NCBI RefSeq assembly: GCF_014652435.1
Contig: NZ_BMYU01000006.1
Coordinates: 1-64,000, forward strand
DNA length: 64,000 bases
Origin: Cognatundibacterium squillarum
GTDB lineage: Bacteria > Pseudomonadota > Gammaproteobacteria > Burkholderiales > Burkholderiaceae_D
Direction of reading: 5' to 3'
The position numbers and the translations under genes were made by a program. Positions within the stretch are counted from its first letter, which is position 1, and each line of letters begins with the position of its first letter. Shown in pieces: positions 38,618 to 45,344 of this stretch. The notes beneath the pieces were generated by a model. The model was given only the letters and a program-made list of their open reading frames with translations, did no database searches and was not told the origin of the DNA.

Positions 38618-39769
38618 ATGCTCAGGGCGGGAATTTTTTGCATTCTGTTGCTGCTAACGGCAGCAGCCTCGGCACAGTCACAGCTCACTTTGTATGGGGT
38701 GATTGATGCAGGGCTGATTTACAACACGCATCAGGCAGCCGGTGACGGCAGCCGTTTTTCAGTGGAGTCCGGCGCTTTGCAGGTGTCGCGCTGGGGCTTG
38801 CGTGGCAGCGAGCAAATTGATCCGGATATGCGCATACTTTTTTCTCTGGAATCCACGCTGAATCATGATACCGGCAGCGCCGGTGCCGGATTCGGTGGGA
38901 ATCAGTTCAGTCAGAATGGTACATCAACGTCCTTATTTGACCGTGCTGCATGGCTGGGTGTCAGTGGTCGTTACGGAACGCTGACCGCCGGGCGTCAGAA
39001 CATTCTGGGTGTGGAGTCTGTCGGTCGTGCCGATCCTGCTGATCTGGCACATGCGGCAACTAATCCGAATGTTTTGCTCAGCGGGATGTATGCCGGGGCG
39101 TTGTACGGCGGATTCGGCAGCAACCGCGGTGGCGCGGCGTTACGACAGAATAATGCGCTGAAGTATCTCTCGCCCGCCGTTGAAGGCAGTGGCTTTGCGC
39201 TGATGTATGCACCCGGTGAGCAGGCGGCCAGTGTGCGTTCCTCCTCTTACGCGGGTGTGTCGGCGTATTACAGCAACGGACGCGATGGTGTTGCCGCCGC
39301 TTACGGTGTATTTCGTGACCAGACCGGCGCGGCAAGTCTTGAAGCGTGGGCGGCCGGGGTAAAATGGCGACCCTCTGAGCAGTGGACGGTCAGGGCAAGT
39401 TTTGCGGGCGATGTTGTCCGCGGGGACATCACCATTCCCATGCCCGGAAACCCGCAGGCAAATGCCAATGGCCGGCGTATCACGGTTGGTGGTATCGGTG
39501 TGGATTATCAGCATTTTCCGGCACTGGTATCGACTGTCGCTGCATACCAGTCGCGTCGCAGTGGTGATGTGCCGGGGCGCGCAGCACAGTATCTGGTGAT
39601 TACAAAATACAGTCTGAGCGGACGAACCGTGCTGTATGGCTCACTGACACTGGCGGTTGCAGCTTCTCCCGCACCGCAGGATACGATGCTGGCGCTGGGC
39701 ATCATCGGGATCGGCAGCGGCTACCGTTCAGCGTGGCGGGTGGCGAGTGGCATGCAGCACGTTTTCTGA
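38618..39769 (+). CDS. Outer-membrane porin, first copy
   Basis: A 383-residue beta-barrel porin of the Gram-negative (Burkholderia/Neisseria-type) family. A signal peptide ends AAASAQ (about residue 20), followed by SQLTLYGVIDAGL; the final GMQHVF ends in Phe, as required for barrel insertion. GGGGGA precedes the ATG. Codon use is ordinary, in contrast with the second porin, so this one is probably made at lower level or only under certain conditions. Its last strands differ from the other copy. Confidence 0.88.
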   Translation: MLRAGIFCILLLLTAAASAQSQLTLYGVIDAGLIYNTHQAAGDGSRFSVESGALQVSRWGLRGSEQIDPDMRILFSLESTLNHDTGSAGAGFGGNQFSQNGTSTSLFDRAAWLGVSGRYGTLTAGRQNILGVESVGRADPADLAHAATNPNVLLSGMYAGALYGGFGSNRGGAALRQNNALKYLSPAVEGSGFALMYAPGEQAASVRSSSYAGVSAYYSNGRDGVAAAYGVFRDQTGAASLEAWAAGVKWRPSEQWTVRASFAGDVVRGDITIPMPGNPQANANGRRITVGGIGVDYQHFPALVSTVAAYQSRRSGDVPGRAAQYLVITKYSLSGRTVLYGSLTLAVAASPAPQDTMLALGIIGIGSGYRSAWRVASGMQHVF

Positions 39770-40074
39770 CGAATTCTGCAGCGCAGAATCGGATAAATTG
39801 TCCGGAAAAACATCCGGAAAAATGAATTCTGCATAGTGCTAAGGGTTAATACTTATTTTGTTATTTTTTTGAAAATTTTGGTTGTGAATTAACGACATAA
39901 TCCCGCTTATTTCCTGCAACTGGGACGATTTTGCTTGGCTAGGCAGTATGAATTTTGGTCAAATAGCCTATAACTTAAAATCGAATCAGTAGTGATCAGT
40001 AGTGGATGCTTTTTTCTGACTGGGTTTCATCGAAAACGGCATCATCCACTCCCTTTCATCCTTTGGAGAAAACA
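39770..40074. other. 305-bp AT-rich promoter/leader of the major porin
   Basis: A strongly AT-rich block (39840-39900) and TTGGTC...TAAAAT (15-nt spacing, near 39956-39982) could form the promoter. A rather long leader would then precede the ATG, as is usual for regulated porins. No single -35/-10 pair is convincing. Confidence 0.35.
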
Positions 40075-41112
40075 ATGAAAAAATCCCTCATCGCTCTGTC
40101 AGTTCTGGCAGCTGTTGCAGGTTCTGCACAAGCACAATCTTCCGTAACCGTCTACGGTGTTCTGGACATGGCATTCAATGCTGAACACAACGGTACTGGT
40201 GCCCCAGGTAACAAATTTGCAGTAGACAGCGGTATTCAATCCGGTTCCCGTCTGGGTTTCAAAGGTTCTGAAGACCTGGGTAACGGTCTGAAAGCTAACT
40301 TCAAACTGGAAATGGGCGTGAATGCTGACGAAGGCAAATCCGCTCAGGGTGGTCTGGCATTCGGCCGCGCAGCATGGGTAGGTCTGTCTGGTGACTTCGG
40401 TTCCGTACAAATCGGTCGTCAGAACAAACCGATTTTCGACGCAGTTGATGCAGTTGATCCGTTCAGCACCGGTATCATCGGTGGTAACGCAGGTTCTTCC
40501 ACTTCTGCAACTGGTCTGGGTAACTTGGTTTTCGCAACCAACCCACGTATCAACAACTCTATCAACTACTCTACTAACAACCTGTCCGGCTTCCAAGCTT
40601 CCGTTCAGTACGGTGCTGGTGAGCAAGCTGGTGACGCAGGTAAAGGCCGTGGTATGGGTCTGTCTGCTTCTTACACTGCAGGTCCTCTGTTCGTGACTGG
40701 TGCTTACCAGGCTGACAACGACACAGCAGCTGTTGTGAACGCAATCAAACACGCTTTCGTTGGCGGTACTTATGACTTCGGCGTAGCAAAAGGCGCACTG
40801 TCTTTCACTAAAGTACGTTCTGACAACAATGCAACTCAGTACAAACTGTGGAGCGTTGGCGCGACAGTTCCTGTCAGCGCAGCTGGTGCAATCATCGCTT
40901 CTTACTCTTATGTAACAAACGATGCTGTTAAAACAGACAACAACTCCGGTTACTTCGGTATCGGCTACACACACTCTCTGTCCAAGCGTACTAACCTGTA
41001 CACTTCCGCTTCCCGTCTGAAAAACGACAAGAACGTGAACGCAGGTGGCATCGCTTCCGGTAACGGCGCGACTGAGCTGCTGTACAACGTTGGTATCCGC
41101 CACATGTTCTGA
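40075..41112 (+). CDS. Major outer-membrane porin, second copy
   Basis: A 345-residue trimeric-type general porin. The signal peptide MKKSLIALSVLAAVAGSAQA is followed by QSSVTVYGVLDMAF, and the end is VGIRHMF with terminal Phe. The ATG at 40075 has GGAGA upstream. Codons are strikingly biased (CTG, GGT, GTT, TCC, AAC, CGT), the mark of a very highly expressed gene, and the gene ends in a UUCG-loop terminator. It is likely the main diffusion channel of the cell. Confidence 0.92.
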   Translation: MKKSLIALSVLAAVAGSAQAQSSVTVYGVLDMAFNAEHNGTGAPGNKFAVDSGIQSGSRLGFKGSEDLGNGLKANFKLEMGVNADEGKSAQGGLAFGRAAWVGLSGDFGSVQIGRQNKPIFDAVDAVDPFSTGIIGGNAGSSTSATGLGNLVFATNPRINNSINYSTNNLSGFQASVQYGAGEQAGDAGKGRGMGLSASYTAGPLFVTGAYQADNDTAAVVNAIKHAFVGGTYDFGVAKGALSFTKVRSDNNATQYKLWSVGATVPVSAAGAIIASYSYVTNDAVKTDNNSGYFGIGYTHSLSKRTNLYTSASRLKNDKNVNAGGIASGNGATELLYNVGIRHMF

Positions 41113-41397: not shown

Positions 41398-42444
41398 TCA
41401 GCGGCTATTATCAGGCATCGCAACGCCGAAATGCTGATACGCCATCGCTGTTGCCATGCGTCCGCGCGGCGTGCGTTGCAGATAGCCTTGCTGAATCAGA
41501 TAAGGCTCCAGCACGTCTTCTATCGTATCCCGTTCTTCACCGATGGCGGCCGCGACGTTATCCAGACCGACCGGCCCACCGCCGAATTTAAACAGAATTG
41601 CTTCCAGCAGTTTTCTGTCCATCAGATCAAAACCGACACCATCGACGTCCAGCATGCTCAGCGCGGCATCCGCCATCGCTTTGGTAATCGTGCCACTGCC
41701 TTTAACTTCTGCATAATCACGCACACGGCGCAGCAGGCGGTTGGCGATACGCGGTGTACCGCGTGAACGTTTAGCGATTTCCATTGCACCTTCCGGATCA
41801 ATCGGTGCATTCAGCAGGGTGGCGGAACGGCTGACGATGCGGCACAGCTCTTCTGCGGTATAAAACTCCAGACGGGCCACAATGCCGAAACGGTCGCGCA
41901 ACGGGTTAGTCAGCATACCAGCACGGGTAGTGGCACCTACCAGCGTGAAAGGTTGCAGATCGAGTTTAACCGAGCGCGCCGCCGGACCTTCACCGATCAT
42001 AATATCAATCTGATAATCTTCCATCGCCGGATACAGAATTTCTTCGACGACCGGTGACAAGCGGTGAATCTCATCGATGAACAGGACATCATGCGCTTCC
42101 AGATTGGTCAGCAGCGCGGCAAGATCACCGGCACGTTCCAGCACCGGCCCGGAAGTCTGGCGCAAATTGACGCCCATTTCCCGTGCGATGATGTGGGCTA
42201 ACGTGGTTTTACCCAGCCCCGGCGGTCCGAACAGCAAAGTGTGGTCGAGTGCTTCGCGGCGTTGTCGGGCGGCCTGAATAAAGATTTCCAGCTGACCACG
42301 GATTTTCTCCTGACCGACGTATTCATCCAGCTGCTTGGGACGTAATGCGCGTTCCAGCGCATCCTCGCCGCCGGGCAGATTCTGCGGCGTGATCAGACGC
42401 GGTTCGGAAAAGTCGATGCTCAGGTTATCGGTCTGGATGCTCAT
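41398..42444 (-). CDS. ruvB: Holliday junction helicase RuvB
   Basis: A 348-residue AAA+ motor that with RuvA drives branch migration. Walker [10 protein letters not shown] (about 68-76), Walker [10 protein letters not shown], the arginine-finger region and the C-terminal winged helix (TPRGR) are intact. It begins 14 nt after ruvA, so they share a transcript. Full length. Confidence 0.96.
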
Positions 42445-42458
42445 GGCGCAATGGGAGT

Positions 42459-43040
42459 TCAGGATTTAGACAAGGCTTTCAGTGCCAGCTTGATGCCTTC
42501 AGAGACACCGACATCCGCCGCCACCGATTTGAGTGCTGCGCTGGCTTCTTTCTCAGAATAACCCAGCGCCAGCAGTGCATGCAGAATATCGCCGTGCGCC
42601 GCATTGCCACCGGCTGCGCTGACCGGCGTGAACAGATCTGCCCCCAGTTTGCCTTTCAGTTCCAGTAATAAGCGTTCGGCAGTTTTTTTGCCGATACCGG
42701 GAACGCGGGTCAGGCGACCGGCTTCCTGCAGACTGACGGCCTGCGCCAGATCTGCCGCCGACATGCCGGACAAAATTGCCAGTGCCGTGCGCGCACCAAC
42801 GCCGCTGATTTTGATCAGCTGGCGGAAAGTGGCACGTTCTTCGGCGGTGGCAAAGCCAAACAACACATGTGCATCTTCACGGATCGCCAGATGCGTCAGC
42901 AGCACCACTTTTTCGCCATTCGGTGGCAGATGGTAAAAGGTCGACATCGGAACATCGACTTCATAGCCCACGCCCTGACAATCGATCAGTAATTGTGGGG
43001 GATTTTTTTCGATGAGTGTTCCTGCAATGCGGCCTATCAT
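42459..43040 (-). CDS. ruvA: Holliday junction binding protein RuvA
   Basis: A 193-residue protein that binds four-way junctions as a tetramer and recruits RuvB. The N-terminal OB fold begins [15 protein letters not shown], a helix-hairpin-helix block reads [22 protein letters not shown], and the C-terminal three-helix domain ([16 protein letters not shown]) contacts RuvB. AAGG precedes the ATG. A consensus LexA box lies 14 nt upstream, so ruvAB can be induced apart from the upstream genes. Confidence 0.95.
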
Positions 43041-43053
43041 GATCTGCCTTGTA

Positions 43054-43069
43054 CTGTATGAATGAACAG
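43054..43069. promoter_or_regulatory. LexA (SOS) box before ruvA
   Basis: CTGTATGAATGAACAG is an exact CTGT-N8-ACAG site, flanked by TA on one side and TG on the other. It lies 14-29 nt before the ruvA ATG in the ruvC-ruvA spacer. Confidence 0.8.
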
Positions 43070-43123
43070 TGATAGTAAACGATTCCGCGCTGCTTGACGA
43101 GAGATTCCGGCCGGCAAAATGTC

Positions 43124-43675
43124 TCAGCCGATCAGGCGGCCACCTTTAACGCGCAAGCCTTTGCGCGCCAGTTCCGGTGCGATCTGGCTCAGTGTTGCTA
43201 AGGTATCGCCGCTGTGTGCATGGCAGATCGCAACGCCAAGTGCGTCAGCGGCATCGCTGCCGGGTTTGCCGCTCAGACTCAGCAGGCGCTGCACCATGTC
43301 CTGCACCTGTGTTTTGTCTGCACGGCCTTTGCCGACCACGCCTTGTTTGACTTGCAGCGCGGTATATTCAGCTACGCTCAGATTAGCCGACACCAGTGCG
43401 CAAATTGCCGCACCGCGTGCCTGACCGAGTAGCAATGTGGATTGCGGATTGACGTTGACGAATACTTTTTCGATGGCGGCACAATCCGGCTGATACGTGC
43501 GAATGACTTCTCCGACACCTTGCAGAATGGTTTTCAGGCGCTCCGGCAGGCTGTCTTCTTTGGTCTGTATCGTACCCGATGCCACATAGCGCAAATGGTG
43601 GCCGGTTTTTTCAATCAGGCCGAAACCGGTGGTACGCAGGCCGGGATCTATGCCCAGTATCCTGATGGTGCTCAT
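43124..43675 (-). CDS. ruvC: Holliday junction resolvase RuvC
   Basis: A 183-residue endonuclease that cuts Holliday junctions as a dimer. The RNase H-like start [15 protein letters not shown] carries the first catalytic Asp; AAIEKVFV and the C-terminal [12 protein letters not shown] add the other acids. The start at 43675 matches family [10 protein letters not shown]; the longer frame is rejected. It follows purH by 103 nt and precedes ruvA with an 83-nt spacer holding the LexA box. Confidence 0.94.
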
Positions 43676-43778
43676 GCAGACATCCTGAAAAGTAAAAGGC
43701 CAGTATAAGCGATTCAACGCAGATACTGGCCTGATAAGGACGGCGCAACGCTGTCAGCAGCGCTGCGCTGTGCCCGGA

Positions 43779-45344
43779 TTAGTGACGGAAATGACGTGTG
43801 CCGGTGAACACCATCACCACACCGCGTTCGTTAGCGGCATCGATTACTTCCTGATCGCGCATAGAACCACCAGGATGAATCACGCAGGTAGCGCCTGCAT
43901 CCACCACCACATCCAGACCGTCACGGAACGGGAAGAATGCGTCGGATGCCACAGCGGAGCCGGACAGCGTCAGGCCGGCATTCTGTGCTTTGATCGAAGC
44001 GATGCGTGCGGAGTCAATACGGCTCATCTGACCTGCGCCGACGCCCAATGTCATACCGTTGCCGCAGAACACGATTGCATTCGATTTCACGAATTTCGCG
44101 ACGCGCCATGCAAACATCATGTCCGCCATTTGTTGCGGAGTTGGCTGCAGGTTGGAAACGACACGCAGTTCTTCCGGCATCACGTTTTTGGAATCGGAAG
44201 ACTGCACCAACAAGCCGCCGCCGACACGTTTTACGTCATATGCGTTGATACCGTTGCCCAGCGGGATTTCCAGCAGGCGCACATTTTGTTTCGCGGCGAA
44301 GATCGCTTTCGCATCAGCGGTGAAGGACGGCGCGATCAGCACTTCCACGAATTGTTTGGCGACGGCTTCTGCCGCTTGTGCATCCAGTTCACAGTTGAAG
44401 GCGATGATGCCGCCGAAGGCGGAGGTCGGATCGGTCTGGAAGGCTTTGCTGTACGCATCCAGTGCGGAAACACCGGTCGCTACGCCGCAAGGATTGGCGT
44501 GTTTGATGATGACGCAGGCTTTGTCTGCGAATGATTTTACGCATTCCCATGCTGCATCTGCATCAGCGATATTGTTGTAAGACAGTTCTTTACCCTGCAG
44601 CTGTGTGTAGCTGGCCAGTGCGCCGGCAGCCGGTGCCAGATCGCGGTAGAACGCTGCGGACTGGTGCGGATTTTCACCGTAACGCATGTCCTGCACTTTA
44701 TCGAAATGCAGATTCAGTGTTTGCGGATAAGCGCTGCGGGTTGTGTGTTGCTTGTCTTCGCCCAGGCTGGTCAGGTAATTGGTGATCGCACCGTCGTATT
44801 GTGCGGTGTGCGCGAACACTTTTTTTGCCAGTGTGAAATTGGTTTCGTAGCTGACCTTGTTGCCATTCGCTTTCATTTCAGTCAGTACGCGGCTGTAATC
44901 GGCCGGATCGACAATCACAGTCACATCTTTGTGATTTTTAGCGGAAGAGCGCAGCATGGTCGGGCCGCCGATGTCGATGTTTTCAATCGCATCTTCCAGC
45001 GAGCATTCTGCTTTCGCCACGGTTTGCTGGAACGGATACAGATTCACCACCACCATGTCGATGGTCGGAATCTGGTGCTGTTCCAGGGCTGCCACGTGTT
45101 CCGGCAGATCACGGCGTGCCAGAATGCCGCCGTGCACTTTCGGATGCAGGGTTTTGACGCGGCCATCCAGCATTTCAGGGAAGCCGGTGTAATCCGCGAC
45201 TTCTGTCACTGGCAGGCCGTTGTCAGCCAGCAATTTTGCCGTACCGCCGGTAGAGAGCAGTTTGACACCGAGTGCAGACAATTCACGTGCAAATTCCAGA
45301 ACACCGGTTTTATCGGAGACGGAGATAAGAGCTTGTTTGATCAT
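43779..45344 (-). CDS. purH: Bifunctional AICAR transformylase / IMP cyclohydrolase
   Basis: A 521-residue enzyme for the last two steps of IMP synthesis. The N-terminal MGS-like cyclohydrolase domain ([36 protein letters not shown]) is followed by the transformylase domain with [15 protein letters not shown] and [10 protein letters not shown]. Full length. It lies after fis by 46 nt, in a cluster typical of this group of bacteria. Cytosolic. Confidence 0.96.

Follow-up and report, generated by a model that had tools for sequence, protein, structure and literature searches.

The window, by which we mean the whole stretch of 64,000 nucleotides that was analysed, carries the genes dusB, fis, purH, ruvC, ruvA and ruvB, and the family models agree with the names which the sequence-only reading of this DNA had given them. 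The features that matter for the present analysis are listed below, from purH towards ruvB.

43779..45344, minus strand: purH, the housekeeping gene before ruvC (TIGR00355, 752.7 bits)
43697..43732, minus strand: terminator-like hairpin in the purH-ruvC gap (10-bp stem and 16-nt loop, then TTTACTTTT)
43124..43675, minus strand: ruvC, upstream of ruvA (TIGR00228, 191 bits), without a preceding LexA box
43095..43100, minus strand: proposed -35 hexamer TCGTCA, spaced 17 nt from the -10 (four of six consensus letters; partly conserved)
43072..43077, minus strand: proposed -10 hexamer TACTAT of a ruvAB promoter (four of six consensus letters; conserved columns)
43054..43069, minus strand: predicted LexA operator in the spacer from the ruvC stop to the ruvA ATG, the palindrome CTGTTCATTCATACAG (exact match)
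42459..43040, minus strand: ruvA (open reading frame; TIGR00084, 207.4 bits)
41398..42444, minus strand: ruvB, downstream of ruvA (open reading frame; NF000868, 544.1 bits, and TIGR00635, 489.3 bits)

The spacer between the stop codon of ruvC and the ATG of ruvA measures 83 nt. Two tandem porin-like genes on the plus strand (38618-39769 and 40006-41112), judged by eye from their translations, are convergent with ruvB.

The predicted operator is the sole exact match to CTGT-N8-ACAG in the 64-kb window, found at 43054-43069 just as had been claimed, and it reads CTGTTCATTCATACAG on the gene strand (43069-43054). Its placement after ruvC and before ruvA also stands, with the small correction that 13 nt, and not 14, lie between the box and the ruvA ATG at 43040. 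By count alone such a match is at the level of chance, as 0.73 are expected in the window and at least one appeared in 52 of 100 shuffles. Significance drawn from the box count in the window was accordingly rejected, and the case for the box depends on its place, its context and its conservation. Over the whole genome the pattern is enriched, with 80 sites where the reversed control has 51, and the TA-flanked motif has 13 matches against two for its control; these 13 represent 12 distinct sites, since one palindromic site was counted on both strands. A TA-flanked exact LexA box is also seen in locus L003 (1501-1518), 127 nt upstream of a 254-aa open reading frame for which no family match was found in NCBIfam or Pfam.

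The context of the box is promoter-like. The box adjoins a conserved but weak -10 hexamer, and the arrangement of TCGTCA (43100-43095), 17 nt and TACTAT (43077-43072) fits a sigma-70 promoter, albeit a weak one; with eight of twelve letters against a threshold of nine, it was not listed by the promoter scan. Among 38 aligned genomes of the genus, the letter of the window is kept in 29 to 38 at the six columns of the -10, and in 19 to 38 at those of the -35, which is thus partly conserved. The box therefore sits on what is likely to be a private promoter of ruvAB. From the position of the -10 hexamer, transcription of ruvAB would be expected to begin at about 43065. This point falls within the box, and a repressor sitting there would prevent initiation. 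The internal start that had been predicted near 43075 is slightly off in this respect, because 43077-43072 is the likely -10 itself.

An operator of this kind calls for a matching repressor, whose absence would have spoken against the SOS reading, and the genome encodes a LexA fitting the gammaproteobacterial-type box. There is a single match to LexA in the genome, at 231.6 bits and above the curated cut-off. The protein can be aligned over its length to LexA chains in the PDB, the best-matching of which we take to be that of E. coli, and it keeps in its DNA-binding domain the motif RS(T/P)NAAEEHL, presumably the LexA recognition helix. The gene itself is preceded by two boxes, the exact CTGTATAAAAATACAG and CTGCTTATACATACAG, the latter with CTGC instead of CTGT. 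Exact boxes are also located before imuA and dinB, and the recA box, CTGATCTTTTATACAG, has one mismatch; ImuA had no Pfam family, and an NCBIfam family was found for it. Two boxes before lexA appear to be the usual state in the genus, being present in 27 of 29 scorable loci (30 were fetched), and the CTGC form accounts for 15 of the 55 boxes found before lexA genes in the genus. In locus L014 the two boxes just before lexA adjoin each other, the second being of the CTGC form, and it is this pair that recurs in the genus. A single letter separates CTGCTTATACATACAG at lexA from CTGCTTATTCATACAG, a form common at ruvA in the genus. Since CTGC is thus also present in the second of the operators before lexA here, CTGC in a predicted operator at ruvA need not be a sign of decay.

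The conservation of the ruvA box was followed in the genus, apparently Undibacterium, from which 43 genomes were taken; ruvA was found in 41 of them and readable upstream DNA in 40, one genome (G171) being left out since its upstream region is cut by a contig end. The homologous box is present in 38 of the 40, in 14 as an exact match and in 24 with CTGC, one letter off the consensus. It is absent from G163 and G179 among these 40, which have other box-like sites further upstream, with one and two mismatches, respectively. The mean information is 1.84 bits in the columns of the box, 1.63 in the 14 columns before it, and 0.54 in the columns 26-50 nt before it. A 19-mer drawn from the genus boxes occurs at 40 places in 39 of the 43 genomes, and 36 of the 40 places are at ruvA by coordinates; the control had no matches in the same 43 genomes. 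The box also persists in several genomes of the genus where ruvC and ruvA are separated by more than 800 nt. The predicted box is thus kept in the relatives beyond the DNA around it, and we conclude that the putative LexA box before ruvA is real and not a product of chance. In some genus genomes (L130, L137 and L142) ruvC is split from ruvA by extended DNA that is rich in repeats and has reading frames of low complexity, and in two relatives (L108 and L117) the gap is filled by an opposite-strand open reading frame of 153 aa.

One could also imagine that the conserved block is a promoter and leader of ruvAB serving basal expression, and that it resembles a LexA box by accident or as a vestige. 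The inclusion of the -10 region in the conserved block, at a mean of 1.63 bits, would agree with this, as would the chance level of one exact match per window. We nonetheless consider it very unlikely, for the letters that are kept are those of a LexA-type palindrome, ACAGTA included, and the same variant form is found before lexA. The survey of the family described below bears on the same question from both sides.

The absence of a box at ruvC is the other half of the argument. No LexA box was found before ruvC in the window, where the closest candidate between purH and ruvC has three mismatches, and none within one mismatch was found before ruvC in the 28 genus genomes that were scored. It had been claimed that ruvC follows the housekeeping transcript. 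This is now doubtful, as the terminator-like hairpin, a 10-bp stem followed by TTTACTTTT, stands between purH and ruvC; transcription of ruvC in this species probably does not come about simply by extension of the purH message. The fold of 43681-43741 has an energy of -25.6 kcal/mol (z -6.45); the hairpin is absent from the list of the terminator scan, its 16-nt loop being longer than the limit of 8. As a feature of the genus the terminator-like hairpin was rejected: among the 16 genomes of the genus in which purH and ruvC are at most 130 nt apart, 11 have an exact stem of at least six pairs, and the T-rich tail is seen in the window's hairpin only (seven T of ten; 0-3 in the others). In relatives with purH-ruvC gaps of about 35-54 nt, ruvC may ride on the purH transcript.

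These results also allow one to weigh the possibility that the operator works but that the three genes are not uncoupled, either because ruvC is co-induced or because the ruvAB mRNA comes mainly from read-through out of ruvC. With only 83 nt between ruvC and ruvA, and no terminator-like site listed by the scan in that gap, read-through from ruvC may indeed keep ruvC and ruvAB partly coupled, and the weakness of the proposed ruvAB promoter points the same way. The lack of a box before ruvC, in the window and in the scored genus genomes alike, speaks against its co-induction; the hairpin would limit the supply of ruvC transcripts coming from purH; and the ruvA box is kept even where ruvC is distant. 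Loss of uncoupling by this route is, in our judgment, quite unlikely, if a little less so than a purely basal promoter.

The survey was widened to the family, presumably Oxalobacteraceae judging from its named members (two unclassified named loci, L020 and L060, were counted with it). A draw of 145 genomes together with the genus provided 173 scored ruvA upstream regions. A ruvA box with at most one mismatch and within 100 nt was found in 62 of the 173, and eight other half-site patterns gave 0-12, which argues against an incidental likeness at a basal promoter. The genus contributes 39 of 40 (the 38 homologous boxes and the other site of G163) and the rest of the family 23 of 133. Outside the genus the box is concentrated in g27 (seven of seven, all exact), g29 (six of seven), g41 (three of three) and g13 (two of four), and it appears in one genome each of g5, g15, g21, g24 and g28, as one-mismatch matches that may be due to chance. 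The named loci with a ruvA box are two of Undibacterium, one of Herbaspirillum and one of Collimonas; a second Herbaspirillum (L024) has a version with two mismatches only. Judged from one example each, the box is downstream of a -10-like hexamer in g1 and g41 and upstream of it in g27 and g29. That other genera repeatedly have boxes at different positions around this -10, as in all seven genomes of g27, again speaks against the basal promoter.

The presence of the box was also compared with the spacing between ruvC and ruvA. When genomes were divided at a tight-spacer limit of 57 nt, which was chosen after seeing the data, and those without ruvC in the fetched stretch were counted as open-spacer, the ruvA box was present in none of the 41 tight genomes and in 62 of the 132 open ones. 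The zero is partly mechanical, because between closely spaced genes a box before ruvA would hardly fit outside coding DNA. By the same division, the -10-like TGTAT[GC]AT is found before ruvA, outside the genus, in 58 of 92 open-spacer genomes versus one of 41 tight ones, with letter shuffles giving 0.25. Of these 92, 23 have a ruvA box, and a box-free -10-like element precedes ruvA in many relatives, which favors a promoter for basal expression. The other 69 of the 92 have no ruvA box, which weighs against the reading of the site as an operator.

The upstream regions of ruvC were scored in 160 genomes, 139 from the family draw (80 in stretches already fetched and 59 fetched in addition) and 21 more from the genus. 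An exact ruvC box, mostly CTGTGTTTTTRCACAG, was found in 13 of the 139, all of them in g4 (four of five), g12 (three of seven) and g19 (six of seven), while the eight control patterns gave 0-1. All genomes of g4 and g12 have a tight ruvC-ruvA spacing, as do six of the seven in g19. An exact box at ruvC was also seen in three Massilia loci (L042, L066 and L083) and in the unclassified L060, and L166, L173, L222 and L246 are among the loci with an exact LexA box before ruvC. Controls at one mismatch reach 1-12 of 160 at ruvC, so single one-mismatch matches are not trusted there, and those in single genomes of g7, g15, g31 and g40 may be chance. Of the 159 genomes scored at both places, 49 have the box at ruvA only, 17 at ruvC only, one at both (a weak case) and 92 at neither. 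In g29 the two genes are far apart or on different contigs; in one genome (G028), for instance, ruvA is at about 0.83 Mb and ruvC at about 4.64 Mb.

These distributions suggest, if only tentatively and with confidence that stops a little short of calling it probable, that the LexA operator shifts with the layout of the operon in this family. It would stand at ruvC in the three genera in which ruvCAB is mostly tight, thus inducing all three genes, and at ruvA where there is room for a promoter of its own or where ruvC is unlinked, thus inducing RuvAB only; the induction of RuvAB would be the selected constant, with the dosage of RuvC left free. The reading is limited by the 26 of 41 tight genomes that have a box at neither ruvA nor ruvC.

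In named loci outside the family, a one-mismatch ruvA box was found in one of 65, and a one-mismatch ruvC box in one of 41 readable upstream regions. Across 399 genomes of the order, an exact box lies 5-80 nt before a MIG-type start in ten, against two for the control; five of the ten come from a single genus (g115; L304-L308) in a different family and two from the present family. Laribacter is reported to have no lexA (PMC3135505), which bears on the outgroups only.

Taking the locus as a whole, we are highly confident in reading the site as a LexA (SOS) operator placed on a private sigma-70 promoter of ruvAB, through which ruvAB would be induced without ruvC. LexA dimers would cover the start of the transcribed DNA immediately downstream of the -10 and prevent initiation; bound there, they may also impede transcription that comes in from ruvC. 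Once DNA is damaged, RecA filaments would bring about the self-cleavage of LexA, and ruvA and ruvB would then be induced and ruvC would not. LexA binding, the start site, repression, induction and the ruvC-free ruvAB transcript are all things we infer from the sequence. The earlier claim that ruvAB responds to SOS apart from ruvC thus holds up in its main part: ruvAB is very probably SOS-induced without ruvC, given the gamma/beta-type box, the likely private promoter, the fitting LexA and the empty ruvC upstream regions of the genus, with the qualification that read-through could couple the genes.

The matches listed in the open-licence literature included none that deals with ruv genes under LexA in this presumed Oxalobacteraceae family; queries there for Herbaspirillum seropedicae or Janthinobacterium gave no matches, and a looser one for Herbaspirillum gave none mentioning the genus among the 20 matches listed of 208. 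Of the results described here, the two operator placements in one family are more interesting than the ruvAB operator itself, which is ordinary in kind. If the shift with operon layout is true, the family would amount to a natural experiment on what cells with damaged DNA gain from more RuvAB when RuvC is not raised as well, and it would allow a direct test of whether extra RuvAB (for fork reversal and branch migration) is needed without extra RuvC resolvase in the SOS response.

The closest known parallel is E. coli, in which only ruvAB is under SOS regulation and ruvC is outside the SOS regulon (PMC3323433). The likeness is in the CTGT-N8-ACAG operator at ruvAB, its lack at ruvC and the same family of repressor (PMC3323433). 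There is one difference of layout, since the E. coli ruvC lies away from ruvAB, whereas ruvC in the window has kept its place directly before ruvA, at a distance of 83 nt, and follows purH. The uncoupling of the resolvase from the branch-migration motor, which the sequence-only reading had proposed, is therefore no new uncoupling; the split control, with ruvAB under SOS and ruvC not, is very likely here and is the E. coli arrangement. Some Vibrionaceae have LexA sites at both ruvC and ruvAB, and control of ruvC was apparently lost where genes were inserted (PMC3323433). As in that group, the predicted LexA control of ruvAB persists here while that of ruvC varies with operon layout; in contrast to it, boxes at both places were met in only one of 159 genomes of the family, and that one is weak. 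The 2012 survey in PMC3323433 regarded SOS control of ruvCAB as presumably lost in the beta-proteobacteria, represented there by Burkholderiaceae and Comamonadaceae. The LexA regulon predicted for these two families shares with the present genome the same motif and a core of lexA, recA, dinB and the imuA cassette (PMC3323433), but differs in that control of ruvCAB is proposed to be lost there and is predicted to be present at ruvA here. The conservation of the ruvA box in a lineage outside that beta-proteobacterial sample thus limits the published generalization of loss.
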